Shown: piece after piece, positions 14,132 through 32,168 of the stretch
How positions within the stretch are numbered: position 1 is the stretch's first letter
How the letters are laid out: the number at the start of each line of letters is the position of its first letter
Origin: Branchiibius hedensis
GTDB lineage: Bacteria; Actinomycetota; Actinomycetes; Actinomycetales; Dermatophilaceae
DNA: 64,000 bases
NCBI RefSeq assembly: GCF_900108585.1
Contig: NZ_UESZ01000001.1
Coordinates: 1,798,001-1,862,000 of the forward strand
Direction: 5' to 3'
Position numbers and translations under genes: made by a program
Notes under the pieces: model-generated
Databases searched by the model: none
Told to the model about the DNA's origin: nothing
What the model saw: the letters and a program-made list of their open reading frames with translations, nothing else

Positions 14132-14149
14132 GCCGCCAACCAATAGGGC
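14132..14149 (+). promoter_or_regulatory. Cassette-boundary element (GCCGCCAACCAA)
   Basis: GCCGCCAACCAA-TAGGGC immediately before the leader ATG at 14150 and 6 nt after the lipoprotein stop. One of five copies, all between a stop codon and a tagged gene or its leader. Confidence 0.55.
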
Positions 14150-14254
14150 ATGACCACTGTTGACGACTCAGGACTCCTTCGTCATCACACCTCGCGCATC
14201 GAGCTTCGCTCGGCGCACGAGGCAACCCGACCGGGCCGAGAGGAGTCAGCATGA
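14150..14254 (+). CDS. Leader peptide 1, coupled to tagged protein 1
   Basis: 34 aa, MTTVDDSGLLRHH...ELRSAHEATRPG type. Its TGA overlaps the ATG of the tagged gene at 14251. The peptide begins like the tag (M-T-T-V-D) and then carries the conserved ELRSAHEATRPG block seen in the other leaders. The RNA over that block folds as a short hairpin (TCGAGC-TTC-GCTCGG). Confidence 0.5.
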   Translation: MTTVDDSGLLRHHTSRIELRSAHEATRPGREESA

Positions 14255-15060
14255 GCACGGTTGATGCGTCGGGTGCGATTCACGGCAGCGACGGCAAGTT
14301 CGCGGGGCACATCGCCAGCGAACCAGCCTCGTCGGTTGCCCTGGCCGAGCCACTGGCACCCAATGCGCGCGAAGCCGAAATCAAGACCGTGTTGGAACGG
14401 GTCCACACCACCGTTCAGGCGCGCGTCCAGTCGCTGTACGCCGCGCACGAAGCGGCCGGCGGGCGCGTCGACATCGACACGGTCCGAGGTGAGGAGCACG
14501 TCCGCTGGACCGACACCGACGGCAACCTGTGGCGACAGACAACGCCGGCCGACCCGGACGCGTTCGATGACTACGACATCGGGCTGCCGGTGGAAACCTT
14601 CGACCGGCAACCGACCGCATGGATCATGCGTGACGGCGCTGTCGTCCGGCAGGAGACCGACCCACGCACCGGCGCCCTGATGCCGTTCATCACCAACGCC
14701 GCAGAAGGCGGTACGCACACCCGCTACTTGGCGAGCAACGCCGACGAGTTCACCGACTCCGACGGGAAGTTCCACCGCAGCGGCGGAAAGGCTGCGTGGA
14801 TCAGCGCCGACAGCGTCGAGTGGTACGAACACGGCGTTTCCCACCGCGACCGCAGCGATGGACCCCAACAGATCGACGCCGATGGCCAGTGCAGCTACTA
14901 CGAGTTGGGCCATTACATTCCAGCCTCGGAGCTCGCCCCCGACCTGCTGGCGCGCCACGGTGTTCGACTGGACCCTCAAGATGGCAACCTGTACGTCGAA
15001 GCTGTCGCCGACGACCCCGATTGCGACTTGATGAACATGTACGCCGAGGGGGATCTGTGA
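14251..15060 (+). CDS. Tagged protein 1 (HRxDGPA/MORN-like body)
   Basis: 269 aa. Residues 1-~30 are the shared tag (MSTVDASGAIHGSDGKFAGH then IASEPASSVAL). The body is a mixed region with EAAGGRVDIDTVRGEEHVRWT and VETFDRQPTAWIM, then MORN-variant-like repeats (FHRSGGKAAWI, VEWYEHGVSHRD, DGPQQIDADG, YYELG). The same body plan is found in the tagged proteins at 22347 and 23398. No signal peptide or membrane segment. Start fixed by the ATGA overlap with leader 1. Function unknown; delivery to the recipient is a hypothesis based on the tag. Confidence 0.7.
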   Translation: MSTVDASGAIHGSDGKFAGHIASEPASSVALAEPLAPNAREAEIKTVLERVHTTVQARVQSLYAAHEAAGGRVDIDTVRGEEHVRWTDTDGNLWRQTTPADPDAFDDYDIGLPVETFDRQPTAWIMRDGAVVRQETDPRTGALMPFITNAAEGGTHTRYLASNADEFTDSDGKFHRSGGKAAWISADSVEWYEHGVSHRDRSDGPQQIDADGQCSYYELGHYIPASELAPDLLARHGVRLDPQDGNLYVEAVADDPDCDLMNMYAEGDL

Positions 15061-15185
15061 TGAGCACCGTCGACGCTTCCGGACTCCTCCGGCTCGCTCC
15101 GCATCGCCTCCGTCATCACACCTCGCACATCGAGCTCAGCGCGGCGCCCGAGGCAACAAGGGAGGATTCGGATGACTACCGTTGA
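15060..15185 (+). CDS. Leader peptide 2
   Basis: 41 aa (MSTVDASGLLRLAPHRLRHH...). Its ATG overlaps the stop of tagged gene 1 and it ends 14 nt inside tagged gene 2 in another frame. Begins with the same eight residues as the tag, then the leader-specific sequence; conserved EATR near the end. Confidence 0.5.
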   Translation: MSTVDASGLLRLAPHRLRHHTSHIELSAAPEATREDSDDYR

Positions 15186-16048
15186 TGCGTCGGGCGCGAT
15201 TCACGGCAGTGACGGACGGTTCACCGGCCACGTAGGTTTAGAGCCCGACATATCCCTGACTTCGTCCAGTCTGTTTACACCGCAGGCGATTCCGCTGAGC
15301 GACCAGGCAGCCTTGGCCGCTCACCGGGCCTACACCAGCGAGGTCGGTGCTGCGCGCAATGCGATCCAAGAACAGATGGACCGCCTGGATGCGCAACTGT
15401 TCGTGCGGGAAATGACTGCTGAGTGGGCGGCCGCGGAAATAATCGACCTGAACCTCACCCGGGTCGACACCGCAGCGGTATCGATCACCGACGATGAAGA
15501 AGACGGCGAACGCGCGGTCTACGTCGCCCGTCGGCCGCCGAACCGTGCTGAAAGTCTGGGCCAACAGCCGCATACTCAGCGGGTTCTACGAGCGGTTCGC
15601 CGTCGACCCAGACGACGGGGACGTGTGGGATGAGGAGTGGGAGCTAGACGTCGCAAAGCTGCGTCGCGAGGGTGCTTTGGAACAGCCCGATGGCGTGTGG
15701 CAGGTTGCCGATGCGGCCAACCAGCAGCGACGGACGTTGTCGTTTTCCCGGATGAGAACCGACGTGCGAGACAAGTGCCCGCGTGCCCGGTTCGTGGCGT
15801 ACTTCAACGATGCTGATGGCCCGGTGCTGGACGGACTGTACGACGCCGATGGGAACCAGGTGTACGGCGACAAAGCCGACCCGAGTTGGCACACCGACTC
15901 CTCCGTTCGCGACGACGATTTCGAGAGCGAGACGGCTGGACTGATCCAGGACATGGGAGACATCGCCCGCGACCACTGGCCGGACACGACGCCGGACTGG
16001 GCGTCGCGGGACATCAACCTGATCGACCTCGGCGGGGCCGAGTCCTAG
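15172..16048 (+). pseudogene. Tagged protein 2, frameshifted
   Basis: The first frame (15172-~15540) encodes the tag (MTTVDASGAIHGSDGRFTGH) and a helical segment; the homologous continuation is in the +1 frame, to 16048. The paralogue at 19827 covers both halves in one frame: its ARFVAYF-DDADG and VYDADGSQVYGD-SDPSWHTD blocks match the second-frame RARFVAYFNDADG and YDADGNQVYGDKADPSWHTD. The shift lies near 15525-15545, in a CG-rich stretch. It could be a true disruption, a sequencing error or, less likely, programmed frameshifting. Confidence 0.75.
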
Positions 16049-16055
16049 CTGCGGA

Positions 16056-17093: not shown

Positions 17094-17111
17094 GCCTTGT
17101 TGGTTGGCGGC
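17094..17111 (-). promoter_or_regulatory. Cassette-boundary element
   Basis: Minus-strand GCCGCCAACCAACAAGGC directly before ATG 17093, between two tagged genes. Confidence 0.55.
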
Positions 17112-17120
17112 GCACTCCCG

Positions 17121-17999
17121 TCAGCGACGTGAAAGGTCATCCAGATCAATGACCGCTTCGTACAGGCTGTCCCAAGTGTCCGCCATGTCCGGTTCGAGGC
17201 TGGCGTCCCGGCCACCGAACTGCGTCCAGGCTGTCGCGAACCCGGTTTCGGCAGCCCCTTGCACCAGGGACTCAGGATGTTCGTTTCCGATCATCCGGCA
17301 GGGGTCGAAGTCCACGTCAGCCCCGTCAGAATCCAGCACGGCGTCGATCTGCCAGTAGTCGGAACCGTCCGGGCGGCGGAGAGCAACGAACCTGCCGCTG
17401 GGGCACTCGGCCCGAACCATGTCCCGCAGGCTCTCCAGGTCACGCTTTGAGGCGATGTCGGTGCCCGCGTTGGAGGCTCGGTGCACCACGTCGATCGGCC
17501 TGCCGGGTGCGTCCAGCTCGCGCCGAAGTTTCTCCAGGTCAATGCGTGCGCTGGCGGCGTCGTGGTTCATCGTGCCGGGCACTGCAAAACGATCCAGGAA
17601 CGCGCCTACTTCGTCTGCAGGCATCGAAAACTGTTGCGAGATTCGGTCGCCATCCTCTTCTGGTTCGATCCAAACCACCGAGTCGTCACCGTCGAACTCG
17701 TATGTCACCTCGGCCTGAGTTGCCTCATCCGGTTGCCCACTGGCCGAGGAAACCTCTGCGCGTTCCAGGGCCAGGTGGCGGCCCGCGAGACGAGCCATCT
17801 CCTCGTTGATCTGCTCCCTCATCGCAAGCAGATACGACTCCATTTCGAGGGTCGCCTCACCCGCACGCGAAAGCCGGTCGGTGAGCTGCGCGCCACCAGG
17901 GGTCGACAGGCTGACCGTCGAATCCGCCTCTCCTGCAATGTGTCCCGTGAACTTGCCATCGCTTGCGTGGATCGCGCCCGAAGCGTCAACTGTGGTCAT
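17121..17999 (-). CDS. Tagged protein 4
   Basis: 292 aa from ATG 17999; AGAAGGGACAG supplies a ribosome-binding site, and longer readings run into the neighbour. Tag MTTVDASGAIHASDGKFTGH. Then a coiled-coil-like helix (EATLEMESYLLAMREQINEEMARLAGRH split by loops), an acidic beta region (VTYEFDGDDSVVWIEPEEDGD) and the shared C-terminal module LRDMVRAECPSGRFVALRRPDG ... IDAVLDSDGADV, also present in tagged proteins 2, 7 and 9. Cytoplasmic, acidic. No known family. Confidence 0.7.
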   Translation of the reverse strand: MTTVDASGAIHASDGKFTGHIAGEADSTVSLSTPGGAQLTDRLSRAGEATLEMESYLLAMREQINEEMARLAGRHLALERAEVSSASGQPDEATQAEVTYEFDGDDSVVWIEPEEDGDRISQQFSMPADEVGAFLDRFAVPGTMNHDAASARIDLEKLRRELDAPGRPIDVVHRASNAGTDIASKRDLESLRDMVRAECPSGRFVALRRPDGSDYWQIDAVLDSDGADVDFDPCRMIGNEHPESLVQGAAETGFATAWTQFGGRDASLEPDMADTWDSLYEAVIDLDDLSRR

Positions 18000-18018
18000 C
18001 GCGTGACTGTCCCTTCTC

Positions 18019-18678
18019 TTAGGTCTGAGGTACTTGAGGGTGTGGATTCTTAGAGTCGACCCAGGCGTCGAAAGCATCGAGTTCAGGCTGCTCGACTCGG
18101 TGGTTGCGCAGCCAACGAGTGGCGTGTTTGAGCTCGGCTGACAGGACCGGCTTGCCGTCGGCGAAGTCGCGCAGACCGTACGTCGCGTGATACCTCGCGA
18201 CGTCGGCGGCGTCGGAATCGGTGAACGACTCGCCGCGCGCAGCCTTGCTGGCGGCTTCATTGAAGCGGCGCACCACCTCAGTGCGTTCTGTGGGAACCGG
18301 CTGGCCAGCGGGCACGTAGTACGGCTTGCCCGGCTCCCCCTGTGTGTAGATCTCGATCTTCTCTCGACGACCCTCTCGAACCCACCGGAACGACTGGCCA
18401 GTGGTCGCGAGTCTGCGGTTCAACTCGTAGGTGGGGTCGTCACTGTTGGCGGTCTTGATCTGTTCAATCTTGGCGCGCAACTGCGCTGTCGACAGGTGAG
18501 CGAACTGCTGAGCGATGACGCGGTCGAGGTCGCCCCGCAACGGCCCGTACTGGTCGTGATCCGGCTGCGCCTCTGCCGCCGATGTCAGCATCACAGACGA
18601 ATCAGACTCTGCCGCAACGTGACCCGCAAACTTGCCGTCGGACCCGTGGACCGCACCCGACGCATCGACCGTGCTCAT
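18019..18678 (-). CDS. Tagged protein 5
   Basis: 219 aa. Tag MSTVDASGAVHGSDGKFAGH with AAESDSSVMLTS. Body largely helical: LRGDLDRVIAQQFAHLSTAQLRAKIEQ, a short beta segment (SFRWVREGRREKIEIYTQG), then ARYHATYGLRDFADG and a C-terminal helix. No catalytic motif seen. Its ATG overlaps the stop of leader 5 (ATGA) and it is followed after 19 nt by tagged gene 4. Confidence 0.65.
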   Translation of the reverse strand: MSTVDASGAVHGSDGKFAGHVAAESDSSVMLTSAAEAQPDHDQYGPLRGDLDRVIAQQFAHLSTAQLRAKIEQIKTANSDDPTYELNRRLATTGQSFRWVREGRREKIEIYTQGEPGKPYYVPAGQPVPTERTEVVRRFNEAASKAARGESFTDSDAADVARYHATYGLRDFADGKPVLSAELKHATRWLRNHRVEQPELDAFDAWVDSKNPHPQVPQT

Positions 18679-18791
18679 GCAGACCCCTCCAGGCCAGGTC
18701 GGGTTGCCCCGTGCGCCAAGCGCAGCTCGGTGTGCGGGGCGCGGACACGCGTCGCGAGCCGCAGGAATCCGGCGGTAACGACCGTGCTCAT
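18675..18791 (-). CDS. Leader peptide 5
   Basis: 38 aa (MSTVVTAGFLRLATRVRAPH then TELRLAHGATRPGLEGSA). Starts in an ATGA overlap with tagged gene 6 and ends in an ATGA overlap with tagged gene 5, so all three are coupled. The hairpin in this copy is CCGAGC-TGC-GCTTGG, with a wobble pair that preserves the stem. Confidence 0.55.
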   Translation of the reverse strand: MSTVVTAGFLRLATRVRAPHTELRLAHGATRPGLEGSA

Positions 18792-19708
18792 GTGGTTTCG
18801 CCCCATTCGGCGTCTTCCTCATCGGCCATCCAGGAAGCGCCGGCCATGGCCGCGTCGAGGTCGACGTCGCTGGCTTTCGCCCAGTGATGTAGGTCGGTGA
18901 GCATGTCTTTGACGGCCGTTTGCTTGTCGGCCTCCTCGCCGTGGGCGGCCAGGTATCCGCCGACGAACGGGCTGATCCGCCGCACGCTAGTGTCGCGGTT
19001 GTACTCCGAGCCGTCCGGCCTGAGCACTCCGTCGATGTTCATCGTCAACAGCCGCACGTCGCCGAAACCGACGCTGGCCTTGAAGTGCGGCGACATGGAC
19101 GCCTCGGTGTAGACCAGTCCGCCGGACACCCCTTCGATGTCCGAGTATGCGGCGGTGTCCCACAGGTCGTCCTCCAAGACTGTGCCGTCGGCGGCGACCA
19201 CCTCCCGCGGATGCCACCGGTCGTCGGCGTACTCGTCGCTGTCGCGGAACGTCACCGTGGCAGCGTCCGGGTAGTACGCCCGCACATACTGTGCTGCGGC
19301 GATCGCAGACTTCTCATGCTGCTGCCGCTGAACCGCCCAAGCAGCATTGCCCAGGTCGAAAGCCCGCCGGGCACTGGACGCCGCCCGCTGCAGCATCTGC
19401 TGATCTGGCTCCGGGTCGGTCACGCCCACCTCTGACAGCGTGGGGTCTTCCGCGGCGCGTCCCAGCACGTCGTCAATGCCCCCTGGGGCGACCGGCGTCG
19501 GCTCGATCGAACAGGACAGCATCGTCTTGTCGCCGTACTGCTTGGCCGTCAGGTACACGGTCTCCCCGGAACGCTGCGCCGTCACGTAGCGGCTCCCTGC
19601 TGGCGGCCCGACGGGCTGCTCCAGGGTCACGTCCGACTCGGAGCTGACGTGGCCAGCGAACCTGCCGTCGGACCCGTGGATAGCGCCGGAGGCGTCGACC
19701 GTGCTCAT
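18788..19708 (-). CDS. Tagged protein 6
   Basis: 306 aa from ATG 19708. Tag MSTVDASGAIHGSDGRFAGH, then SSESDVTLEQP. Contains a small beta-rich part (SRYVTAQRSGETVYLTAKQYGDKTML split), a helix (ASSARRAFDLGNAAWAVQRQQ), and the shared module in a variant form: VRAYYPDAATVTFRDSDEY ... WHPREVVAADGTVLEDD, closest to tagged protein 8. C-terminus acidic. No catalytic residues recognised. Coupled at both ends to leader ORFs. Confidence 0.68.
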   Translation of the reverse strand: MSTVDASGAIHGSDGRFAGHVSSESDVTLEQPVGPPAGSRYVTAQRSGETVYLTAKQYGDKTMLSCSIEPTPVAPGGIDDVLGRAAEDPTLSEVGVTDPEPDQQMLQRAASSARRAFDLGNAAWAVQRQQHEKSAIAAAQYVRAYYPDAATVTFRDSDEYADDRWHPREVVAADGTVLEDDLWDTAAYSDIEGVSGGLVYTEASMSPHFKASVGFGDVRLLTMNIDGVLRPDGSEYNRDTSVRRISPFVGGYLAAHGEEADKQTAVKDMLTDLHHWAKASDVDLDAAMAGASWMADEEDAEWGETT

Positions 19709-19830
19709 GCCAGAACCTCCAGGCCCGGTCGGGTTGCCTCGTGCGCCGAGCGAAGCTCGGTGTGCGGGGCGTGGCGACGAAGGCGTCGCGAAGCGAGCCG
19801 CAGGAGCCCGGAGGCGTCGACCGTGCTCAT
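19705..19830 (-). CDS. Leader peptide 6 (best consensus copy)
   Basis: 41 aa: MSTVDASGLLRLASRRLRRH, then APHTELRSAHEATRPGLEVLA. Coupled by ATGA to both neighbours. The CCGAGC-TTC-GCTCGG hairpin is perfect here. Confidence 0.55.
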   Translation of the reverse strand: MSTVDASGLLRLASRRLRRHAPHTELRSAHEATRPGLEVLA

Positions 19831-20699
19831 CGCAGATACTCCGGGTCGGCGTCGAGGTCGATGACGTTGCACCCGCGCGGCACCCACTCCGCATGGGCGT
19901 CGGGCCAGTAATACTCGGCGCGGTCCCCGAGTGCGTTCAGGTCGTCGTTGACGTCCATCTCGAAGTCGTCGTCACGCGCGGCGAAGTCGGTGTGCCAACT
20001 GGGGTCGGACTGGTCGCCGTACACCTGGCTGCCGTCGGCGTCGTACACGCCTTCCATCTGCGGCCCGTCGGCGTCATCGAAGTACGCCACGAACCGGCCT
20101 GCCGGCACCACGTCCCGGACCTCGTCACGGATCGTGGCGTGCGCCTGCTTCGCGGTCGCACGCTCCGCGGCATCCCTGACTTCCCACAGTCCAGTCGCTG
20201 CCGGCTTCCTTGCTTCGGCGCGCAACTTGGTCAGGTCGACCAAGTCGTCTTCGCGGCCGGCCACCCCGAAGCGTTCCTTGAACGCCAACGTCGAGCCGTC
20301 CCGCATCGTGCGGTAGATCGGGTGCATGTCGTCGTCGTCCGGGCACAGCGTCAGCACGATCCGGCCGTCCACATCACTGCGGTCGACGAACACGGTCGCG
20401 ACCTGGGCGTCACGGATGGAGGGAGTGTCGCGCTCCGCCCGAGCCAACTGTGCCGCGAAGTCTTTGACTGCCAGGTCGGCGTCGGCATTGTTGATCTGAT
20501 CCTCGATCGCGTCGAGTGACCGCGCCAGGGCGAGATTGCGTCGCTCAACCGCTTCGAGGGTCGCGTCGTCGTCCAGTGGGTTGCCCGGGCCGGAGGATCC
20601 AGAGGTGAGGCTGACGGAGTCGTCCGCTTCTCCCGCGACGTGACCAGTGAACTTGCCATCGCTTCCGTGGATCGCGCCGCTGGGGTCAATCGTGCTCAT
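19827..20699 (-). CDS. Tagged protein 7
   Basis: 290 aa. Tag MSTIDPSGAIHGSDGKFTGH, AGEADDSVSLTS. Then a long helix (LEAVERRNLALARSLDAIE...), an acidic beta segment (VFVDRSDVDGRIVLTLCPDDDD), and the shared module IRDEVRDVVPAGRFVAYFDDADGPQMEGVYDADG split across ~200-240. It is the intact paralogue of frameshifted protein 2. Coupled to tagged gene 8 by ATGA without a leader between them. Confidence 0.7.
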   Translation of the reverse strand: MSTIDPSGAIHGSDGKFTGHVAGEADDSVSLTSGSSGPGNPLDDDATLEAVERRNLALARSLDAIEDQINNADADLAVKDFAAQLARAERDTPSIRDAQVATVFVDRSDVDGRIVLTLCPDDDDMHPIYRTMRDGSTLAFKERFGVAGREDDLVDLTKLRAEARKPAATGLWEVRDAAERATAKQAHATIRDEVRDVVPAGRFVAYFDDADGPQMEGVYDADGSQVYGDQSDPSWHTDFAARDDDFEMDVNDDLNALGDRAEYYWPDAHAEWVPRGCNVIDLDADPEYLR

Positions 20700-21361
20700 G
20701 CTGGTTCTCCGTTGCTGCGTCGGGTGGCGAGCTCGCTGCGCAGTTCTCCCGTTCGACGCTGCAACTCGGCGAGATGCGCGTCGATCGCGGAGTCCAGGTC
20801 GGCTGCCGCTTCCTGCGGGGTTCGGGGTGGGTAGTCCTGGTCGATCTGGTCGAAGCTCAACGTCACTGACCCGGTGCGGTCAGCGCCTTCGGGGTGGTAG
20901 TTGGCCAGGTTCACTCGCGCGTTCCACAGCCGGTCAGTCAGTTCTCCGGCGTCAACCAGATCCAGGTAGGTATTTCCGCCGGCGTCCAGGACCATCGGCT
21001 CGCCCGAGCCGTCCAACACGCGGTCGGGAAACCAGTCGCGGCTGTCGTGGTCGTACTCCAAGACGACCGCTGTCGAGCCTGGGTAGCGCGAACTGAGTTC
21101 GTGGCGGATCGAGCGAAGGGATGCACCGTGAGCCTCGCGGGTCAGCGCTCCCCGCTCGGGGAAGTCGAAGTGTTGCAGCGCCAGATTGGTGTCCAACACG
21201 TCGGCGGCCAGGTTGTCGCCAACTTCCATCTGCTCCGCGTTCTGCGGGACGCCGAGGACCGCAGGCGCCGACGCTAACGTCACGGTCGATTCGGAACTGA
21301 TGTGGCCGGCGAACTTGCCATCCGCGGCGTGGATCGCGCCCGACGCATCGACCGTGCTCAT
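20696..21361 (-). CDS. Tagged protein 8
   Basis: 221 aa. Tag MSTVDASGAIHAADGKFAGH, SSESTVTLAS. The short body carries the module LRSIRHELSSRYPGSTAVVL ... WFPDRVLDGSGEPMVLD and finishes with an Arg/Glu-rich helix (AHLAELQRRTGELRSELATRR). Soluble; unknown function. ATG overlaps the leader 8 stop. Confidence 0.68.
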   Translation of the reverse strand: MSTVDASGAIHAADGKFAGHISSESTVTLASAPAVLGVPQNAEQMEVGDNLAADVLDTNLALQHFDFPERGALTREAHGASLRSIRHELSSRYPGSTAVVLEYDHDSRDWFPDRVLDGSGEPMVLDAGGNTYLDLVDAGELTDRLWNARVNLANYHPEGADRTGSVTLSFDQIDQDYPPRTPQEAAADLDSAIDAHLAELQRRTGELRSELATRRSNGEPA

Positions 21362-21483
21362 ATCAGAACCTCCAGGTTGCGTCGGGTTGCCTCGTGCACC
21401 GAGCGAAGCCCGATGCGCAAGGTGTGATGGCGAAGGCGATGCGGAGCGAGCCGCAGGAATCCAGCGGCGTCGACCGTGGTCAT
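21358..21483 (-). CDS. Leader peptide 8
   Basis: 41 aa (MTTVDAAGFLRLAPHRLRHH, then TLRIGLRSVHEATRRNLEVLI). Coupled by ATGA to tagged genes 9 (upstream) and 8 (downstream). Confidence 0.5.
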   Translation of the reverse strand: MTTVDAAGFLRLAPHRLRHHTLRIGLRSVHEATRRNLEVLI

Positions 21484-22313
21484 AGCGCTACTCCGGAGAT
21501 GTTGTCGAGGTCGTACAGGCGGTGGTACTTCCCTCGCGACCAGCGCGGTGCCAGACCAGTGCCGTCGATGTTGCCGTAGCCGGACTCGCCGGGTGTTTGC
21601 AGAGCGTCGAAGATCTCCCCGTCACCCGGGTCCTCGAACGGCAGAGTGTTGCCCTGAACATCGGTGACTGCGTCCAGTTCGTAGCTGCCGTCGGAGTCGA
21701 TCACGCCGACGTAGCGTGCGGTGGGGCACTGCTCGCGGACCCGGTCGCGAACCGTGGTCAGCTCGGCCCGGGCGAGGTCGTCCCGGCTCGACTGCCACCG
21801 TGCGGCAGTCAGTGTTCCGACAGCCTGAGACGGCTGCGCTCCGAGCACCCGTTCCATCGGGCTCAACACGCTTCTGCGGATCTTGTCCACGTCGAGCCCG
21901 ACATCGGTGCCGTCGCCGTATCGCTGCTGGAATGCAACAGCCTGGTCACCGGTCATCGGGTCGCTGCAGGCCAAAAGGTTGTAGTCGCCCTGCGACCAGA
22001 TGGTCGCTGTCAGGTCGCCGTCGTCTTCGTCGAAGGAGATCTCGGCGAACGCGCCATCCGGCAGCCCACCGTCAGCGACCAGCGCAGCGGCCATCTGCCG
22101 GGCCTGCAGTTCAGCGACCTTTTCATCCAGGTCTTGCTGGATCTGGATGATCTGCTCAGCCATGTCCAGATTGGCGGCGTTGATCTGATCCAAGTCGGGA
22201 CTTGCCTGTGTTACCCCTGCCAATGCCACCGCCGCATCCGCCTCTCCCGCAACGTGACCGGCGAACCTACCGTCGGCGGCGTGAATCGCGCCACTGGAGT
22301 CAACAGTGCTCAT
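21480..22313 (-). CDS. Tagged protein 9
   Basis: 277 aa. Tag MSTVDSSGAIHAADGRFAGH, AGEADAAVALAG. Coiled-coil-like helix at ~45-80 (AEQIIQIQQDLDEKVAELQARQ split), acidic beta segment (FAEISFDEDDGDLTATIW), and the shared module VRDRVREQCPTARYVGVIDSDGSYELDAVTDVQG (~185-215). The C-terminus (RGKYHRLYDLDNISG) is unlike the others. Boundary element, no leader, upstream. Confidence 0.68.
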   Translation of the reverse strand: MSTVDSSGAIHAADGRFAGHVAGEADAAVALAGVTQASPDLDQINAANLDMAEQIIQIQQDLDEKVAELQARQMAAALVADGGLPDGAFAEISFDEDDGDLTATIWSQGDYNLLACSDPMTGDQAVAFQQRYGDGTDVGLDVDKIRRSVLSPMERVLGAQPSQAVGTLTAARWQSSRDDLARAELTTVRDRVREQCPTARYVGVIDSDGSYELDAVTDVQGNTLPFEDPGDGEIFDALQTPGESGYGNIDGTGLAPRWSRGKYHRLYDLDNISGVAL

Positions 22314-22331
22314 GCCTTGTTGGTTGGCGGC
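22314..22331 (-). promoter_or_regulatory. Cassette-boundary element
   Basis: Minus-strand GCCGCCAACCAACAAGGC directly before ATG 22313, after the stop of tagged gene 10. Confidence 0.55.
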
Positions 22332-22346
22332 GGCTTCCGTTTCGGG

Positions 22347-23303
22347 TCAGACGATGAAACCACGGTTGTACCAACTCAAAAGCCGGTCGCCCTCATCGTG
22401 ATGGAACCCGTTCAGCCGTAGCGAGCCATCCTCAGCGCGGACCACATTGTGCCGTGCCATCTGGTCTTCGGTTGGCTGAACACCCGCACCAAACTCCACG
22501 TAGTCGACCCGACCGTCATAGCCGACGATGGCCGGTCCTTGGTCGGCCTCGCGATGGGTGATGCCTCGGCGTAGGTATTCGATTGTTCGGTCGCCCAGGT
22601 ACGCCGGACCGTCGGTGCGGTGCGGACGACGTTCCTCATCGACGGACCATTGCGTCCCTGTCAGCGGGTAGAAGCTGGTTATCGTCCCGTCAGGGTCGGT
22701 ATGGGAGAGCATGCCTTGGTCGCGCAAGGCTGCCTTCACCAGGTTCCCGTCGGGGGTCAAGACGGCGGTCGGCGTGCGGTCGGTGAACTCCACCGGCACG
22801 CCCATCTGCCGACACCCGCTGGTGTCGCGCCAAGGTCGGCCGTCGCGAGTCCATCTGACTACTTGCCGGGAACGCTTGTCGGTGATGACCTCGATGCGGC
22901 CGCCTGCCGCTTCGTGCGCTTCAACGTCCCTGAGCATGGCTTCCGAAGCCGGTCGCTGTGTCGTGAGGCTCAGCCCCAACCCGAGATTGCCAACCCCGGA
23001 CCGCACACTGTCCGGCCAGTCTTCGACCGGTGTGTTCGCGATGTCGACGCCGCCCACGATGTGCGGTGGCGTGCCGCCGGTCCGAGGATCCATGCGGGCG
23101 TCGCGCAGCACACGCTGTGCTGTACGGCAACGCTGAGTCAGCACCACATGGTCGTGGCTGGTGCCCCCGGGGTCGACCGCCGCATCCGGTTGATCCGGCA
23201 CGGGCTCGCCCAAGGCCACCGACGAATCCGCCTCTCCCGCAACGTGGCCCGCGAACTTGCCGTCGGACCCGTGGATCGCACCCGACGCATCGACCGTGCA
23301 CAT
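22347..23303 (-). CDS. Tagged protein 10 (HRxDGPA/MORN-like body)
   Basis: 318 aa. Tag MCTVDASGAIHGSDGKFAGH (Ser2 replaced by Cys), AGEADSSVALGEP. Then MDPRTGGTPPHIVGGVDIANT, a block shared with tagged protein 11, EAAGGRIEVITDKRSRQVVRW and VEFTDRTPTAVL shared with proteins 1 and 11, and MORN-variant repeats (PHRTDGPAYLGDRTIEYLRRGITHR split; QGPAIVGYDG; VEFGAG). The ATG-TGC start change removes the usual leader stop. Confidence 0.7.
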   Translation of the reverse strand: MCTVDASGAIHGSDGKFAGHVAGEADSSVALGEPVPDQPDAAVDPGGTSHDHVVLTQRCRTAQRVLRDARMDPRTGGTPPHIVGGVDIANTPVEDWPDSVRSGVGNLGLGLSLTTQRPASEAMLRDVEAHEAAGGRIEVITDKRSRQVVRWTRDGRPWRDTSGCRQMGVPVEFTDRTPTAVLTPDGNLVKAALRDQGMLSHTDPDGTITSFYPLTGTQWSVDEERRPHRTDGPAYLGDRTIEYLRRGITHREADQGPAIVGYDGRVDYVEFGAGVQPTEDQMARHNVVRAEDGSLRLNGFHHDEGDRLLSWYNRGFIV

Positions 23304-23401
23304 TCGGACCCCTCCTGGTTGTGTCTGGCCGCACCGTGCGTCGAGCGGAGCCCGGTGTGCCCAGCGAGCCCGAGGAGCCCCGATGCGTCACGAGCCGTCA
23401 T
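23304..23401 (-). other. Leader 10 remnant, stop codon lost
   Basis: A leader-like ORF starts at ATG 23401 (MTARDASGLLGLAGHTGLRS, then THGAARHNQEG), coupled to the stop of tagged gene 11. In this copy the TGA that normally overlaps the next ATG has become TGT, so the frame reads on through the tagged gene in another frame to 23138. Confidence 0.5.
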
Positions 23402-24492
23402 GCCGGTTCCCCGTCGAATCGGCCCTCGTAGTAGGCGTCCGCCGGGTTGAATCGTGGACCGGCTCCGGGCACAAGCCAGCCGCCAGCCGGGTCAGGTTCG
23501 AGTCCGACAGCCCGCGCCCGGCCGGGGAATATTTGGTCGTCCACGTTGCGGCCGTTCTCGATGAAGTGCGCCTTGCCGTCCGATCCGATGACCGCCGGCC
23601 CCTGATTGCGGTCGCGATGTGTGATGCCGTGCCGGCGGTACTCGATGCAGCGTTCGTCGATCATTGCTGGACCGTCGTCGCGGTGAACCAGACCGTCTTT
23701 GTCGTGGTACGCCTCAGACTGGTCGTCGGGGTCGGCGGACCAGGTGTGGGCGCCGCCGTCCGGTAGTTGCCGCTCGAAATGCAACCGGTAGTCGCCGTCG
23801 CCCCATTCGACCCGTTGCGGGCGCAGTAGTTCGCCGTCGGGCAACCGGGTCGCCGAGACGAACCGCTTCTCCACCGCCGGGCCCATGCCGTCATGGACGT
23901 CGAAGTCCTGCGTCTCGGTGAACTCGACCGGCGCTCCGTGAGCGTCTTCGTAGCGGAAGCTAGCGGCGTCCCATTCCCGCGCGGCCACGCCCAGCTCGCC
24001 GTCGGCGTTCGTCCACGACGTGACCCGCTGCGTGTTGCGCGGGTCAGAACCGAAGTGATCATCGTGGACGCTGACGTTCCCCCCGAACTGTTCGTGCAGT
24101 TCCCTTGCCGCCAACGCCTTTTCGCGGCTAGCCGTCAGCGCATCCCGCAGGCTCTCAGGTACCTGGTGGCCCGGGTTTTGCTCGATGTGCTCGGCATACA
24201 GAGCAAGGTGGGCTCGGGCGCGCAGCGGCATGTTACCGATGTAGGTGTTGGCGATGTCGACGTCGCCCACCATGACCGGCGGGCAGCCACCGGTGCCGGG
24301 GTCGATCGTCACCTGGCGCAGTCGCCGCTGCGTCGCAGCATCTCTGGCGCGGATATCCGGGTCGTTCGGCAGGTCGTCGCCGGTGGCGCCCGGCTGGGCT
24401 AGTTCGAGTCCGTCGTCCGGTTCACCGGCAATGTGGCCGGCAAACCGTCCGTCGTTGCCGTGAATCGCGCCTGATGCGTCAACTGTGGTCAC
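23398..24492 (-). CDS. Tagged protein 11 (HRxDGPA/MORN-like body)
   Basis: 364 aa, GTG start. Tag MTTVDASGAIHGNDGRFAGH, AGEPDDGLELAQP. Then IDPGTGGCPPVMVGDVDIANT, helical SRDAL-type region (ASREKALAARELHEQFGGN), VEFTETQDFDVHDG, and MORN-variant repeats (VHRDDGPAMIDERCIEYRRH; ITHRDRNQGPAVIGSDG; HFIENG). First tagged gene of the minus-strand polycistron, immediately after the phage-type nuclease gene. Unknown function. Confidence 0.7.
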   Translation of the reverse strand: MTTVDASGAIHGNDGRFAGHIAGEPDDGLELAQPGATGDDLPNDPDIRARDAATQRRLRQVTIDPGTGGCPPVMVGDVDIANTYIGNMPLRARAHLALYAEHIEQNPGHQVPESLRDALTASREKALAARELHEQFGGNVSVHDDHFGSDPRNTQRVTSWTNADGELGVAAREWDAASFRYEDAHGAPVEFTETQDFDVHDGMGPAVEKRFVSATRLPDGELLRPQRVEWGDGDYRLHFERQLPDGGAHTWSADPDDQSEAYHDKDGLVHRDDGPAMIDERCIEYRRHGITHRDRNQGPAVIGSDGKAHFIENGRNVDDQIFPGRARAVGLEPDPAGGWLVPGAGPRFNPADAYYEGRFDGEPA

Positions 24493-24510
24493 GCCATGTT
24501 GGTTGGCGGC
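24493..24510 (-). promoter_or_regulatory. Cassette-boundary element
   Basis: Minus-strand GCCGCCAACCAACATGGC fills the whole gap between the stop at 24511 and GTG 24492. Confidence 0.55.
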
Positions 24511-25140: not shown

Positions 25141-25550
25141 AGGCCGTCCTGACGGTCCCGTCGATCACGACGGTCCTGCTGGCGTTCCATGCGGCGCATC
25201 TCGCGGCGGTCGACGTAGGTGACGTTGCGCCGGTTGTAGTAGTTCTGCTGGCTGTTGCTGTAGTTGCCGGAGCCGGACGGCGGGCTGTCGATGACCGACC
25301 ACGCCAGCCAGGCGAGGAAGATCACCCCGACCGCGCTACCGGCAGTCTTCTTCCAATCGGTCAGGCCGATCCTGGCGCGCAACTGACTGATCGTGGCGAA
25401 AACGTCGATGACGCCGAACGCTTTGAGCGCCCACAACACAATGGCGCCGGCCACAGCCAAGCCAACGATCCACGCGATCAGGTACACCAGCTTCCCGACA
25501 GCGCGAAGCAGGATGTTCTCCGCGAACCGCCACTCGAACATCCTCAGCAT
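25137..25550 (-). CDS. Two-TM membrane protein with charged tail
   Basis: 137 aa from ATG 25550, overlapping the ATPase stop by 7 nt (TTG 25556 is an alternative). Hydrophobic segments at about 20-45 (LVYLIAWIVGLAVAGAIVLW) and 70-88 (AVGVIFLAWLAWSVI); the tail is Asn/Tyr-rich then very Arg/Asp-rich (RREMRRMERQQDRRDRRDRQ). Position between an FtsK-like ATPase and the tagged genes suggests a membrane partner of the transfer machinery; no family assigned. Confidence 0.65.
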   Translation of the reverse strand: MLRMFEWRFAENILLRAVGKLVYLIAWIVGLAVAGAIVLWALKAFGVIDVFATISQLRARIGLTDWKKTAGSAVGVIFLAWLAWSVIDSPPSGSGNYSNSQQNYYNRRNVTYVDRREMRRMERQQDRRDRRDRQDGL

Positions 25551-27340
25551 TCGCAAGTCCCGTCGCTACGAATGGGTGCTCGGCACGACGGGCACCGTGG
25601 GCCATCGGCGCCTGACGTCCCAGCACCCGCATCTTTAGCGGCACGCTGAGCCTTGGCCTGCGCCTCTAGGCGCCTACTAGCTGCCGCTGCCGCTGCCGCG
25701 CCGAACAGTTGCTCACCGTCGTCGCTGAACGTCTCCGGAGCGTCGCGGCGCGGGTCGAAGGCTGGGCCTTCGTCGTCAAGGTCTTCCTCCGACACGGGAC
25801 AGTATTCGTCCATCTCCGCCTGTGTCGGCTCCGGCCGGGACGTGGTGGGCACGCCACGGCTGGCAAGTTCGGCGTCGAGCTGGCCAGAGGTCGCGAAGAA
25901 CGACTTGAACACCACCGGCGCTTGCCCTTCGAGCTCGGCCCCGCCGACGCCCTTGGAGACCATGCCGCCGTTTGCGACGTTGTCCGGCACCGTCGGTACG
26001 CGGTCGGCAACACTGAACGCCTGATCACGTTGTGTCTTCGAGGGGTTCGGCCCCATCAGAACACGCTGACCAAGCAGCGTCTTCAACGACGGCGGCAGTC
26101 CTGAGTTCTGGTTCGACACCTGACTGCTCAGCAACATGCGGATACCGACGAACCGCTTCTCCGCGGCAATCTTCGTGATGACGCGTTGCAGCTTGAACTT
26201 CAGTCGGTTCTCCTCGATAACCTCTTGCACTTCGGGCATCTTCCGGTCCACTCCAGGCGGAAGCTTCTCCCCCACCAGCAACCCGGCCACCTCGTCCACG
26301 ATGCACAGGATCGGCGGGAACCGCTGGTGGTCGGGCAGGTCGAACCAGTTGGTCACGCCGGCCTGCTCCAGCACCTTGGCGCGGCGGTTGCCCTCCTCGT
26401 AGACCAACGCCAACGCCGTCACCGCCGAACGCAAACCGTCACAGCCCCAGCCGCCGTCGCGCACGTACTTCTTGCACCAGGAGTAGTCGATCGCTTTGGA
26501 CGGCTCGTCCACGATGACCAGCGCAGCGCCCCCGGCGACCTGGTCGGCGATGATGCTGTTCAACGTGTTCGTCTTGCCCGCGCCCGCGGTGCCACTGACC
26601 AATCCGAACGCGTGAGCTCGCCAGTCGATGCTCACGGTGTCGTACTTCTTCTGTCCCGGCGGCGGCAAGATGTCGCCGATCGGGGTCCGGTGCAGATCAG
26701 CTCCGAGACCAGCCAGATTCAATCGGATAGTCGGTGGAAAAGTCGGCGGATCGCTCGGGATGACCTGAGCCGTCAGCTTGTTCGCGTCCGCGACGACGTA
26801 CCAGCCGAACTGCCCGACGACGCTGGTGGCGACCTCGTCCAGCTTCTCGTCGTGCTTGGACGGCATGTAGGACTTCGGCAGACCCAACAGGTAGCCACCA
26901 CCGGGGCGCGGGGCGGCCTGAACGTCCCACGGCTTCACCCCCAACGCTGTCGCGACTGCGCCGCGGCAGCGTGCTGTGTCGTCGTCCAGTTTCGTCAAGG
27001 TCGCTCGGGCCAGGTGCGGGTCGAAGTCAGTCAGGTAGAACCCGGGGTAGGTGTCCTGCAACGTCGCCGCGACCTTCTCCCCCATCGTCGGCTTGGCGTC
27101 GGCCGCCGACAGTGACACTTGGAAGCTCTCCGGCGTCTTCACGCTGCCACCGGCCTTGGCTGCAGCAGTCACCGTCGTCTCGGCGACGTGGCGTCGGAAC
27201 ACTGCCACGTGAGCGTCGGTGTCGATGTTCGCCAAGCTCCACTCGGGGCCCTTGGCCTGACGGACCTTGCTCACGACTGCACCAGAATGACGGTCCGGGT
27301 CGAACCCGGCCGGCAACGGCACCCTCATCTGTTCCAGCAC
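25544..27340 (-). CDS. FtsK/SpoIIIE-type DNA translocase-like ATPase
   Basis: 598 aa, GTG start 7 nt after a Signal II -10 element. N-terminal ~230 residues unrecognised. ATPase core: Walker A GTAGAGKT near 250, Walker B LCIVDEV near 346, then ALVIVDEPSKAID before it and RMLLSSQVSNQ after. The C-terminus is Ala-rich and ends in a zinc ribbon (CPSCRAP ... CEC). FtsK-type proteins pump dsDNA or act as coupling ATPases in actinobacterial conjugation. It heads the polycistron encoding nine tagged proteins, making it a candidate for their recruitment or for DNA movement. A separate VirD4-like protein exists at 35216. Confidence 0.82.
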   Translation of the reverse strand: MLEQMRVPLPAGFDPDRHSGAVVSKVRQAKGPEWSLANIDTDAHVAVFRRHVAETTVTAAAKAGGSVKTPESFQVSLSAADAKPTMGEKVAATLQDTYPGFYLTDFDPHLARATLTKLDDDTARCRGAVATALGVKPWDVQAAPRPGGGYLLGLPKSYMPSKHDEKLDEVATSVVGQFGWYVVADANKLTAQVIPSDPPTFPPTIRLNLAGLGADLHRTPIGDILPPPGQKKYDTVSIDWRAHAFGLVSGTAGAGKTNTLNSIIADQVAGGAALVIVDEPSKAIDYSWCKKYVRDGGWGCDGLRSAVTALALVYEEGNRRAKVLEQAGVTNWFDLPDHQRFPPILCIVDEVAGLLVGEKLPPGVDRKMPEVQEVIEENRLKFKLQRVITKIAAEKRFVGIRMLLSSQVSNQNSGLPPSLKTLLGQRVLMGPNPSKTQRDQAFSVADRVPTVPDNVANGGMVSKGVGGAELEGQAPVVFKSFFATSGQLDAELASRGVPTTSRPEPTQAEMDEYCPVSEEDLDDEGPAFDPRRDAPETFSDDGEQLFGAAAAAAASRRLEAQAKAQRAAKDAGAGTSGADGPRCPSCRAPIRSDGTCEC

Positions 27341-27347
27341 AACCTTC

Positions 27348-27376
27348 TACATGGGCCAGATCCGCGATGCCAGGGT
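27348..27376 (-). promoter_or_regulatory. Signal II promoter (ACCCTG-17-CATGTA)
   Basis: -35-like ACCCTG (27371-27376) and -10-like CATGTA (27348-27353) 17 nt apart, 7 nt before GTG 27340. Drives the ~11 kb minus-strand polycistron. Confidence 0.7.
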
Positions 27377-27380
27377 CGGG

Positions 27381-29237: not shown

Positions 29238-29310
29238 CGACCCATTGTTGCGTCGCAGCGCCGTGAACGAGGAGCCCCACAGGTCACGACCGCTCTGCCA
29301 CAATTCAGCA

Positions 29311-30345: not shown

Positions 30346-30354
30346 GCGAACGGC

Positions 30355-30891
30355 TCAAACCAGGGACAACTCCCGGAACGTCACCAAGCCCAACTGATCC
30401 AGCCCGGCCAAGTAGCCCTTCTCGGTGTACGGGTCGACCAGGATCACGCCGTCACCGGACGGCGCGGCCAGTTCGGTGTACGGCGCGTAGTGACTGGCAA
30501 CCAGAACCAACGGCACCGGCTCGCCCCACACACCGGCTCGTCCCAGCACCGGCCCCGGCAACGGGTCCGTCTTGGGTGACATCATCGCCGTGGTCGCCAC
30601 GTCATCGTCCAACTGGTAGCCACCGTCAATGGCTGCCTGCAACGCCGAATGCTGCACGAACGCAGCGACTCCCGCCGCGTGGTCGAAACGGGCAAGGAAC
30701 GCACTCTCGATGTCGTCGGCCGCGATGTGGTCGTAACCGGCCACCACCAACGGCAGCAACTCCGTTGCGGTGTCCGCCACCGCCTGCATCCGGTCGCCGA
30801 ACAACATCACGAACTGCCAACGTGCCCCGTCAGGGTGCACAGGCAGCATCGGATCGCCGTCGCCGTCGATCTGCGAAGTCAGCAAAGCCAT
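30355..30891 (-). CDS. Hypothetical protein
   Basis: 178 aa from ATG 30891. Alpha/beta, with VVAGYDHIAADDIESAFLARFD, VPLVLVASHYAPY and GVILVDPYTEKGYL; acidic, no membrane segment. No family recognised. Signal I is 59 nt upstream; the intervening leader holds a possible 21-codon ORF starting at GTG 30944, 6 nt after the element, that ends inside this gene at 30879. Confidence 0.55.
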   Translation of the reverse strand: MALLTSQIDGDGDPMLPVHPDGARWQFVMLFGDRMQAVADTATELLPLVVAGYDHIAADDIESAFLARFDHAAGVAAFVQHSALQAAIDGGYQLDDDVATTAMMSPKTDPLPGPVLGRAGVWGEPVPLVLVASHYAPYTELAAPSGDGVILVDPYTEKGYLAGLDQLGLVTFRELSLV

Positions 30892-30950
30892 ATCCAAGTC
30901 TCCAAGTGGTCGATCGTCGCGGTCGGATCAAACGCCCGGCCCACACCCTT

Positions 30951-30961
30951 ACGGTGCGACG
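30951..30961 (-). promoter_or_regulatory. Signal I element
   Basis: Minus-strand 11-mer; 6 nt downstream is GTG 30944, start of a short possible leader ORF, and 59 nt downstream is the ATG of the 30891 gene. Confidence 0.55.
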
Positions 30962-30996
30962 ACTGTCGCCAGTGCGTGGGCCACGTCCGGGCACTG

Positions 30997-32085
30997 CTAG
31001 TTTCGCCGGCGGAAGATTCGCGACACCAACGCAGCACGCTCACGCTGCCGCTCCCGGATCGCCGCGTCCTCCACTGACCGCGGCTTCTCCCGCGTCGGGC
31101 AGTGATGGTCCGCGCCGCTGGCAGTCATCAACCCGCACTTGCCGCAGGTGTCGACGGTGACGCCGCGCTCACCGCGAACGAATCGGTTGAACACCTTGCC
31201 CGGTGCGTCACTGTTCGCCATCGCGGCGTACGTGGCCGGATCAACCTTGTAGCCGTACGTTTTCGGCGGCGCCACGCTGCCGTCCTTGCGGGTGTAGCCC
31301 TTCGTGGTCAACGTCATCATGCCCTCACCGGAATCGGTCGAACCGTAGCCAACCGACCGGATCCAGGTGGACTGCACCGGCATCGCCTTCGCGCCGGTGT
31401 TCGCCAACCGCTCGCGGCGGCGTGCCACCAAGTCGCCGGCCGCCGCCAATGACGTACGAGCCCGCTGACCTTCCAAGACAGCACTGACACCCTCGGCGAC
31501 GAACACCTCGTGCTCGGGCGCGAACCCCAAGCCTTTCGTCTCCCACTGACCGTCAGAACCTTTCGTGACACGCACAGTGCCGTGCACCATCCGACCGTCA
31601 GGAAGCGACGCCGAAACCGGCACGTCAAACGTGCGGTCGTGCTGGGCAGCGCTGAACCGATGGATCGCGGTCTTGGACGGCATCCGCAACGTCATACCGT
31701 GACCCGAGTAGGACATGCGGTGCGTGCGACGGTTCCCCGAGATCGACTTGCCCGCAGTCATGTTCGGGGTGTTGTCGTCCGGCATCAACGGGTAGTCGCC
31801 GCCGCCATGGCCGTACTCGGCGTCCACGAACGTCGTACTCCACCACTGATCAATGCCCTCGGTGGTCTTCGGGTCAATCCGGGTGCTGGTGGCGATCGGC
31901 GCGACATACCCCAGGGAATCCAGTTGCCGGGCACGCAGCTCCCGCCAGTCACTACTGACCGGCGCAGCAACAGTGTCACTGCCATCCGGGCCGCGCAGGG
32001 ATACCTCAGCGGCCTCCCCGGCGACGTGCCCAGCGAACTTCCCGTCGGCGCCGTGGATCGCACCCGACGCATCGACCGTGCTCAT
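30997..32085 (-). CDS. Tagged protein 12 (KTSC domain, zinc-knuckle)
   Basis: 362 aa. Tag MSTVDASGAIHGADGKFAGH, AGEAAEVSLRGP. The middle is beta-rich (SYSGHGMTLRMPS; FDVPVSASLPDGRMVHGTVRV). Residues ~275-310 resemble a KTSC domain (TYGYKVDPATYAAM, APGKVFNRFVRG). A C-terminal zinc-knuckle-like CGKC ... HHC follows, then a basic tail ending FRRRN. KTSC domains are found on phage and lysyl-tRNA-synthetase-related proteins, function unclear. Located apart from the other tagged genes, downstream of whiB, coupled to leader 12. Confidence 0.72.
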   Translation of the reverse strand: MSTVDASGAIHGADGKFAGHVAGEAAEVSLRGPDGSDTVAAPVSSDWRELRARQLDSLGYVAPIATSTRIDPKTTEGIDQWWSTTFVDAEYGHGGGDYPLMPDDNTPNMTAGKSISGNRRTHRMSYSGHGMTLRMPSKTAIHRFSAAQHDRTFDVPVSASLPDGRMVHGTVRVTKGSDGQWETKGLGFAPEHEVFVAEGVSAVLEGQRARTSLAAAGDLVARRRERLANTGAKAMPVQSTWIRSVGYGSTDSGEGMMTLTTKGYTRKDGSVAPPKTYGYKVDPATYAAMANSDAPGKVFNRFVRGERGVTVDTCGKCGLMTASGADHHCPTREKPRSVEDAAIRERQRERAALVSRIFRRRN

Positions 32086-32168
32086 CGGACACCACCGACA
32101 ACAGATGCTGCGCGGTAGGCAAAGGGGCCGCGCTCGACCGACGGCGTAGGCAGGCAGAAGGTGCTCAT
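32082..32168 (-). CDS. Leader peptide 12 (divergent)
   Basis: 28 aa (MSTFCLPTPSVERGPFAYRA, then ASVVGGVR). Starts after a boundary element and ends in an ATGA overlap with tagged gene 12. Shares only MST with the other leaders, so the arrangement, not the peptide sequence, is conserved. Confidence 0.45.
   Translation of the reverse strand: MSTFCLPTPSVERGPFAYRAASVVGGVR

Follow-up and report, generated by a model that had tools for sequence, protein, structure and literature searches.

A stretch of 64,000 nucleotides from Branchiibius hedensis (contig NZ_UESZ01000001.1, here C1, positions 1,798,001 to 1,862,000; hereafter, the window) encodes 12 proteins that begin with a common peptide tag and then diverge in sequence. 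The window lies inside an integrated element of about 150.7 kb in a 4.0-Mb genome, and tags of the same build occur in related integrative and conjugative elements (ICEs) and in megaplasmids of 370 to 570 kb from the same order, where they track the family of a P-loop ATPase encoded at position 35216 of the window. We give somewhat better than an even chance to the view that the tag is a short, mostly N-terminal and probably flexible targeting peptide read by the conjugation machinery of the element, and that the proteins marked by it help in establishment.

A peptide tag under selection on divergent proteins

Tagged genes are named here by the window position at which they start. The preliminary description of this DNA had reported a shared N-terminal tag on 12 genes, and all of them (12/12) indeed carry it in frame at their start, in a phenomenon that proves larger than was claimed. 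Positions M1, T3, D5, G8, A9, H11, D14, G15, F17, G19, H20, and E24 are invariant in the 12 proteins, with V4, S7, and I10 almost so. The DNA of the tag had likewise been called highly similar, which holds only in part: in its first 24 codons, identity averages 0.74 (minimum 0.62), but the synonymous sites are near saturation, the mean proportion of synonymous differences (pS) being 0.637, that of nonsynonymous differences (pN) 0.148, and pS exceeding pN in 66 of 66 pairs. Thus, the likeness of the DNA follows from the conserved protein sequence, and selection acts on the tag peptide, rather than the tag reflecting recent DNA copying.

Behind the tag, the bodies do diverge; where at least four types had been counted, those of the window fall into six groups, namely group A (15172, 17999, 19708, 20699, and 22313), group B (14251, 23303, and 24492), and the single bodies of 17093, 18678, 21361, and 32085. 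Across Pfam, NCBIfam, and PHROGs, no family had matches at E≤0.1 in more than two of these proteins, and therefore none covers the tag. In a structural model of 20699 built on a thin alignment (mean predicted local distance difference test score, pLDDT, 61), residues 1–4, 8–13, and 15–43, that is, most of the tag region, score below 50; the model found no PDB match by Foldseek at E≤0.001. The element as a whole holds at least 17 tags: the 12 of the window, one more of their subtype at C1:1771999, and 4 divergent ones at C1:1748984, 1865588, 1875416, and about 1876750. With 20 of 68 candidates scored, a general tag profile (A3) has at least 15 matches in the host genome, all of them inside the element, which makes up 3.8% of that genome.

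A family of tags that follows the element

In its strict form, the window tag gave one poor match in PLSDB by tblastn, its profile matched none of 57 relatives at E≤0.01, and none of 133 stretches fitting the pattern in Genome Taxonomy Database (GTDB) contigs was confirmed. Within what was searched, the strict tag is private to the Branchiibius element; the search was therefore conducted via the 35216 ATPase, and only in this way did the wider family emerge. Six other ATPase neighborhoods of at least 60 kb were read first, five of which hold tags of the same build in different wording; at this first reading, genome G059 and the first 20 kb of genome G222 yielded no tags. Examples of the wording are RQPAGVSTGGQFAVEPRTETDVEL (genome G303), RKRDTGEAGNKGEFGTVTRGEADVAV (three genomes from a single genus), and RQPKGIPAGGQFAATAHAEPxVxL (megaplasmids of the Arthrobacter group). 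Over 95 tags, the common form is G-x-F-[AG]-x(5)-[ED]-x-x-V-x-[LV], usually with R or H two positions before the acid.

In 27 stretches, the tag profile matched at E≤0.01 127 of 2147 proteins called with a home-made gene caller, many of these same proteins having gone into the profile, and none of 4294 reversed or shuffled decoys. The tag is N-terminal in 124 of the matches, C-terminal in 2, and internal in 1. The match on plasmid pRECF1 was judged spurious and dropped, which leaves 123 N-terminal tags, and the internal one, at 132451 on plasmid zg-Y453, comes from a misjoined open reading frame (ORF) and really sits at the N-terminus of an ORF that begins near 133300. Bodies of at least 60 aa behind the 123 tags form 58 clusters, 34 of them single. 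One tag subtype matches at 152 places across five megaplasmids, with 22 to 40 or more on each. The one common tag of the preliminary description is a real module, but it belongs to a family with several subtypes, and the profile also picks up two C-terminal copies. In an array of tagged genes, a 264-aa protein (G303:C7:1160811-1161605) has a C-terminal tag that may be true or result from fusion with a decayed neighbor.

How the module combines with its bodies is illustrated by ArdC, whose tag reads VDITGAIHGADGKFAGH here, RTRQPKGQPIGGQF in G222, and has another form on pCPAA3, and which is untagged on three ordinary plasmids (pRECF1, pYJNG, and p110066; about 40 kb read of each). In G303, the ArdC relative consists of two pieces 9.7 kb apart (G303:C7:1138274 and 1147962), a tagged N-terminal one of 101 aa and an untagged remainder of 280 aa, and a DNA ligase is tagged on zg-Y453 and untagged in the Branchiibius element and in G303. 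For homologous tagged bodies from different lineages (34 pairs), tags of the own element were closer for both members in 24 pairs, for one in 8, and for neither in 2; within a lineage (33 pairs), the corresponding numbers were 9, 21, and 3. Lineages in this comparison were assigned by us, and 120 of the 123 tags were usable. The wording of the tag follows the element more than the body, and the mean tag score is 63.6 within elements and 27.2 between them.

Co-occurrence and co-divergence with the 35216 ATPase

In 396 genomes of the order, with cut-offs of E≤1e-20 for the ATPase and E≤0.01 for the tag and at most 20 candidates scored per genome, the 35216 family is present in 10. Two or more tag matches occur in 9 of these 10 genomes, six of which had supplied sequences to the profile, versus 3 of the 386 without the ATPase; among the four outside the profile (G059, G222, G243, and G338), three have at least two tags, two of the three in G059 being weak. 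Twelve genomes were picked by the ATPase alone (16 loci minus four already used, those of G303, G222, G300, and pCPAA3): eight have at least one tag, seven at least two, five have one at E≤1e-6, and four have none; Arthrobacter terrae has 38 matches and a Cellulosimicrobium genome 58. Up to 150 candidates were scored in these genomes versus 20 in the order sample, so that the rates are not on one scale and setting 7/12 against 3/386 flatters the former. At E≤1e-6, a tag is found in 5/12 ATPase-picked genomes and in 4/386 lacking the ATPase (G339, G367, G407, and G416).

All six tag-bearing megaplasmids encode the ATPase (7.1e-104 or better), and three plasmids devoid of convincing tags in the 40 kb read gave no ATPase match. 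Of 394 genomes sampled across the class, two have the ATPase and four have tags at E≤0.001; only one of these four, G544 (2.1e-4), lies outside the order. The two also diverge together: across 12 elements, tag distance follows the distance of the ATPase, the sole shared gene compared (Mantel r=0.79, p=0.0001). A tblastn search of 50,697 phage records with three tag subtypes, the window subtype not being among them, gave no match at E≤1. The results support a tie of the tag to a family of mobile elements as opposed to chromosomes in general and, as far as these three subtypes go, to phages. The refuting observation named in the preliminary description, tag homologues mainly in non-mobile genomes without conjugation genes, was checked in part, by the co-occurrence with the 35216 family, and this left the idea standing.

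Upstream motifs and leader ORFs

Tagged genes also have an upstream motif class of their own, which, like the leader ORFs, the preliminary description had not noted. The motif CGCCAACCAA occurs 12 times in the element and not at all in its flanks; five copies lie 6 nt before tagged genes, four precede short leader ORFs that themselves stand ahead of tagged genes, and three lie elsewhere. Another motif, GTCGCACCGT, has 53 copies in the element (about 150 kb) versus 2 in the flanks (about 94 kb), and 47 of them precede an ORF, in no case a tagged one (e.g., at 4731, 6516, and 7145 of the window); it resembles an element-specific leaderless promoter. The leader ORFs of the arrays, 34 to 41 aa long and starting with M[ST]TV, overlap and connect neighboring genes, and most of them begin tag-like, with M[ST]TVDASG.

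A comparable division is seen on zg-Y453 (NZ_CP099467.1), where CCGCACACA occurs 178 times in 375 kb. At a set distance from the start, the form without a following T precedes 23 tagged and 7 untagged ORFs, and the form with T precedes 5 and 61, respectively (p=1.4e-11); only the T form, that of mostly untagged ORFs, has a clear second box some 20 nt ahead of it. CCGCACACA looks like a promoter used throughout the plasmid, perhaps by a plasmid sigma factor. Given their separate upstream motif class, the tagged genes resemble a separate regulon. In the Branchiibius element, the candidate for recognizing the promoters is the protein encoded at 48541, which has eight related proteins in seven other elements, one of them matching Sigma70_r4_2 at 0.0016, below the cut-off; these sequence matches make it a weak sigma factor candidate.

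Bodies carried by the tag

When 59 of 60 representatives of tagged bodies were compared with Pfam (E≤0.01), 30 families were matched, several of them by the same protein. Among the 25 of these families that are listed, none was matched by more than one protein, and most representatives therefore match little or nothing. Single representatives match NAD-dependent DNA ligase, poly(A)/CCA polymerase, Fic, ArdC-N, LPD29, HD, KTSC, hexapeptide repeats, and DUF7007, the LPD29 and ArdcN families being found in 1/59 representatives each, and one representative matches SoFic in PADLOC. Tagged proteins are 100 to 400 aa long in 104 of 123 cases. The earlier remark that one tagged protein of the window is ArdC-like is confirmed for 17093 by ArdC-N and metallopeptidase matches, the former being weak; each of the two families was matched by one of the 12 proteins and is given to 17093 through its plasmid relatives. 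Such relatives occur in 1313 plasmid records, the best of them mostly annotated as "ArdC-like ssDNA-binding" (single-stranded DNA-binding). The frameshift that splits the tagged gene 15172-16048 (+) could mark a pseudogene, an assembly error, or a programmed shift.

The integrated element and its conjugation-type genes

A 45-bp direct repeat marks the limits of the element, with one copy at C1:1746128 and the other at C1:1896765-1896809, the end of a tRNA-Ala (GGC) gene. Direct repeats at a tRNA gene and an adjacent integrase, by which an ICE can be recognized, are both present, the integrase being named by eye only. With a VirB4-like and a TcpA-like ATPase (Table 1), the tagged proteins are encoded in an element with ATPases of the type IV secretion system (T4SS) type. 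The intein in the VirB4-like gene seems to lack the usual first Cys and, judged by eye, may be of class 3. The structure matched by the TcpA-like protein, PDB 6o1w, is a solved "DNA translocase coupling protein", which we take to be TcpA.

The preliminary description had pointed to the 35216 and 25544 genes in connection with a coupling protein or FtsK-like ATPase. The 35216 family does track the tags, but the clearest relative of a coupling protein is the TcpA-like one, outside the window. Neither 35216 nor 25544 matched a Pfam family or, by sequence, had a meaningful PDB match, and known coupling-protein models were not matched by 35216, whose P-loop and DE motif (G388 K389, D652 E653) are invariant in 14 sequences.

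Table 1. Positions of tagged genes, upstream motifs, leader ORFs, and conjugation-type or regulatory genes, in window coordinates unless preceded by C1
Feature	Coordinates	Strand	Remarks
Motif CGCCAACCAA of the tagged class	14134..14143	+	ahead of the leader ORF of 14251
Leader ORF, 34 aa (MTTVDDSGLLR...)	14150..14254	+	end overlaps start of 14251
Tagged protein 14251, 269 aa	14251..15060	+	body group B
Leader ORF, 41 aa (MSTVDASGLLRLA...)	15060..15185	+	joins 14251 and 15172
Tagged ORF 15172	15172..15633	+	body group A; frameshifted, body continues in another frame at 15494-16048
Tagged ArdC-like protein 17093, 345 aa	16056..17093	-	Peptidase_M78 1.4e-6; ArdcN 0.0089 (weak); phrog_7245 anti-restriction 5e-12
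Motif CGCCAACCAA of the tagged class	17100..17109	-	6 nt ahead of 17093 ATG
Tagged protein 17999	17121..17999	-	body group A
Tagged protein 18678	18019..18678	-	body without relatives in the set
Leader ORF, 38 aa	18675..18791	-	joins 19708 and 18678
Tagged protein 19708	18788..19708	-	body group A
Leader ORF, 41 aa	19705..19830	-	joins 20699 and 19708
Tagged protein 20699	19827..20699	-	body group A
Tagged protein 21361	20696..21361	-	body without relatives in the set
Leader ORF, 41 aa	21358..21483	-	joins 22313 and 21361
Tagged protein 22313	21480..22313	-	body group A
Motif of the tagged class	22320..22329	-	6 nt ahead of 22313 ATG
Tagged protein 23303	22347..23303	-	body group B
Tagged protein 24492	23398..24492	-	GTG start; body group B
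Motif of the tagged class	24499..24508	-	6 nt ahead of 24492 GTG
FtsK/HerA-like ATPase 25544	25544..27340	-	by eye, P-loop visible; relatives in 7/26 other stretches
Tagged protein 32085	30997..32085	-	relatives in plasmid zg-Y453 and in G250 carry the tag subtypes of those elements
Motif of the tagged class	32176..32185	-	ahead of 28-aa leader ORF of 32085
Shared protein adjoining the ATPase gene	33681..35219	-	relatives in 11/26 other stretches; weak PDDEXK-like Pfam matches only
Coupling-protein-like P-loop ATPase 35216	35216..37762	-	candidate tag reader; presence tracks tags
Sigma-like protein 48541	48541..49362	+	candidate for element promoters; Sigma70_r3 0.0037, below cut-off
VirB4-like ATPase interrupted by LAGLIDADG intein	54597..58688	+	AAA_10 1.8e-9; LAGLIDADG_3 1.2e-5; Hom_end 1.5e-5
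FtsK-type, TcpA-like protein, 1277 aa	C1:1881363-1885196		outside the window; FtsK_SpoIIIE 2.9e-9; PDB 6o1w 2.2e-10
Integrase-like ORF adjoining the tRNA gene	C1:1894973-1896262		named by eye

Elsewhere in the element, a polymerase III alpha-like gene, named by eye (C1:1762459-1767306), and an NAD ligase-like gene (C1:1783258-1785342) have relatives on a megaplasmid, and from these genes the element looks as if it kept a replication set of its own. The protein at C1:1752923-1754629 combines RRXRR and HNH (2.6e-58), presumably an IscB-like architecture, and has a close relative in G338 (8e-155). By eye, the N-terminus of the protein at 32698-33663 (+) is TIR-like, and the protein at 10777-12144 (-) is TnpB-like.

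Proposed delivery into recipients and its alternatives

The best single explanation of these results, resting as it does on association, would be that the tag is a delivery signal. The candidate reader, an ATPase of the 35216 type acting alone or with the TcpA-like coupling protein, would bind the tag, and the marked proteins would be passed into the transfer channel to enter the recipient together with the DNA or shortly ahead of it. There, the cargo would aid establishment, be it the ArdC anti-restriction protein, Fic, DNA ligase, the poly(A)/CCA polymerase-like protein, or the many uncharacterized bodies. Since the cargo would have to fit the local reader, tag and reader would drift together while bodies come and go. 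The interpretation put forward in the preliminary description is supported in part: what holds is a protein-level module that is tied to mobile elements and tracks the 35216 ATPase, but the clearest coupling-protein relative lies outside the window.

Several observations weigh against delivery. No relaxase was found among the element proteins scanned, and the tag-bearing megaplasmids are typed as "non-mobilizable" by MOB-suite in PLSDB, so that conjugation of these elements is something we infer. The link between tag and ATPase holds per genome, with a tag within 10 kb at only 2 of 16 ATPase loci, and in G059 and G338 the two are on separate contigs. It also has exceptions in both directions: plasmid pR912A has one tag and no ATPase match, and a tag at E≤1e-4 occurs in G058, G339, G367, G407, and G416, all five lacking an ATPase match at E≤1e-20, whereas G243 and 4 of the 12 ATPase-picked genomes have the ATPase and no tag match. 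In three of these four, the N-termini near the ATPase show, by eye, no other common tag. Common descent also predicts co-divergence of tag and ATPase and could give part of the correlation. Foreign tags outscore the own ones in 6 of 12 elements, and the Branchiibius element and G300 each contain more than one subtype. A flexible tag is less clear in the model of 24492 (thin alignment; mean pLDDT 44), in which residues 1–20 score 63–67 with short strands. Known T4SS signals are mostly C-terminal or internal, the N-terminal ones being of unspecified sequence (PMC11288057). Finally, a protein that is HipA-like by eye (G339:C84:59225-60592) ends with a tag-like tail (E 6e-7). A HipA tail as the general origin of the motif was considered and rejected: it gave matches at E≤0.01 in 29 of 297 genomes, with 11 matches in G303 and the best elsewhere at 5.5e-4; G339 itself is absent among the matches listed, and a search against plasmids gave no match. 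The HipA-like gene adjoins a HipB-like gene, and a weaker case of a C-terminal tail exists in G276.

The chief rival, which we regard as unlikely though well worth keeping in mind, is that the tag binds an element-encoded partner in the donor, such as a chaperone, scaffold, inhibitor, or partition complex, which keeps the cargo inactive or on the element DNA, with no transfer involved. Local tags on homologous bodies and co-divergence fit a donor partner equally well, several other proteins shared by the family could fill the role, and the PLSDB typing leaves transfer of the elements unproven. Yet the tested marker that tracks the tags is a P-loop ATPase near conjugation-type genes, and some bodies are of kinds proposed for early delivery (PMC5512222). 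A degron or stability element that is read by a host protease or adaptor and limits the dose of element proteins fits less well, and we consider it improbable. It would accommodate the terminal position with its two C-terminal copies, the low-confidence modeling of the tag in one case (20699), and the tagged HipA-like protein of G339, but a host reader is not expected to yield lineage-specific tags on homologous bodies; nor do the lack of phage matches for three subtypes and the mere 3 of 386 ATPase-less order genomes with at least two matches speak for it.

Poorer in fit, too, and slightly more improbable still, is a by-product of DNA shuffling, in which a repeated 5' module of promoter, leader, and first codons is kept for expression and the peptide has no role. 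Although upstream motif and leader ORFs do recur with the tag and most leader starts are tag-like, the protein is kept at near-saturated synonymous sites, the same tag follows different leaders in the Branchiibius element, the pattern of G, F, E, V, and L persists across elements with different upstream motifs, and C-terminal copies exist. To transfer by a route other than the conjugation channel, such as packaging or export, we assign the smallest probability: that sequence comparison ties the tag-tracking ATPase to no known coupling-protein model or structure would suit it, but VirB4-like and TcpA-like ATPases are encoded in the same element, and no capsid or other export family was found among the 20 window proteins scanned with Pfam. 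Delivery through the conjugation channel thus remains the reading that we prefer.

Relation to known signals and modules

The internal proteins of phage T4 carry a capsid-targeting leader that is short, N-terminal, and found on unrelated proteins destined for injection; that, however, is a phage-head system, and the three tag subtypes searched for here gave no match in phage records. An N-terminal T4SS signal reportedly exists in Legionella, which would be a likeness in position. The TcpA-type coupling protein (6o1w) is an FtsK-type coupling ATPase with a relative in the element at C1:1881363, and we know of no such tag in TcpA-type systems. In Xanthomonas, a module named XVIPCD is found on many secreted T4SS effectors and is proposed to be recognized by VirD4 (PMC12624023). 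The likeness lies in one module on many proteins, but XVIPCD is a folded domain on killing effectors of Gram-negative bacteria, whereas the tag is a peptide of about 25 to 30 residues in several subtypes on actinobacterial mobile elements; a described model of the shared module did not emerge from Pfam, NCBIfam, or PHROGs, none of whose families matched over two of the 12 window proteins.

Polyvalent proteins of phages and conjugative elements have been proposed to be delivered with the DNA, with ArdC-N as an N-terminal "header" connecting them to the conjugation machinery (Iyer et al. 2017, PMC5512222), an article in which the phrase "N-terminal motif" has 0 occurrences. Proposed co-delivery is common to both cases, and LPD29 recurs in 1 of the 59 tagged representatives; their header, however, is a folded ssDNA-binding domain, whereas here a short tag precedes ArdC and many non-ArdC bodies. 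By analogy, a short peptide would do the job of an ArdC-N header or an XVIPCD-like domain. F-type conjugation translocates establishment proteins through the T4SS, and the signals of tested chromosomal substrates are C-terminal or internal and varied (PMC8406263, PMC11288057), unlike the terminal signals seen here, which are of a single kind and come with a separate upstream motif. A keyword search limited to open-licence articles in PubMed Central (PMC) found no earlier description of the tag.

Implications

Even without delivery, the tag would be a peptide code that is mobile and goes with a single ATPase family across elements, and for which we found no described counterpart. Little is known about the proteins that enter recipients in conjugation beyond a few Gram-negative plasmids, and most of the present bodies lack annotation. 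Should the tag be a delivery signal, the proteins delivered by an entire group of elements could be listed from sequence alone, giving a catalogue of candidate anti-defense and establishment factors. We further propose, tentatively and in the belief that this broader view is somewhat more likely to fail than to stand, that actinobacterial ICEs and megaplasmids carry a "conjugal proteome" of a handful to several dozen proteins per element, which would have its own promoter class and one kind of terminal peptide code read and delivered by the element ATPase, the lineages representing dialects of that code. If this is true, delivered proteins could be predicted in large numbers from the tag, which could itself be used as a portable signal for delivery.

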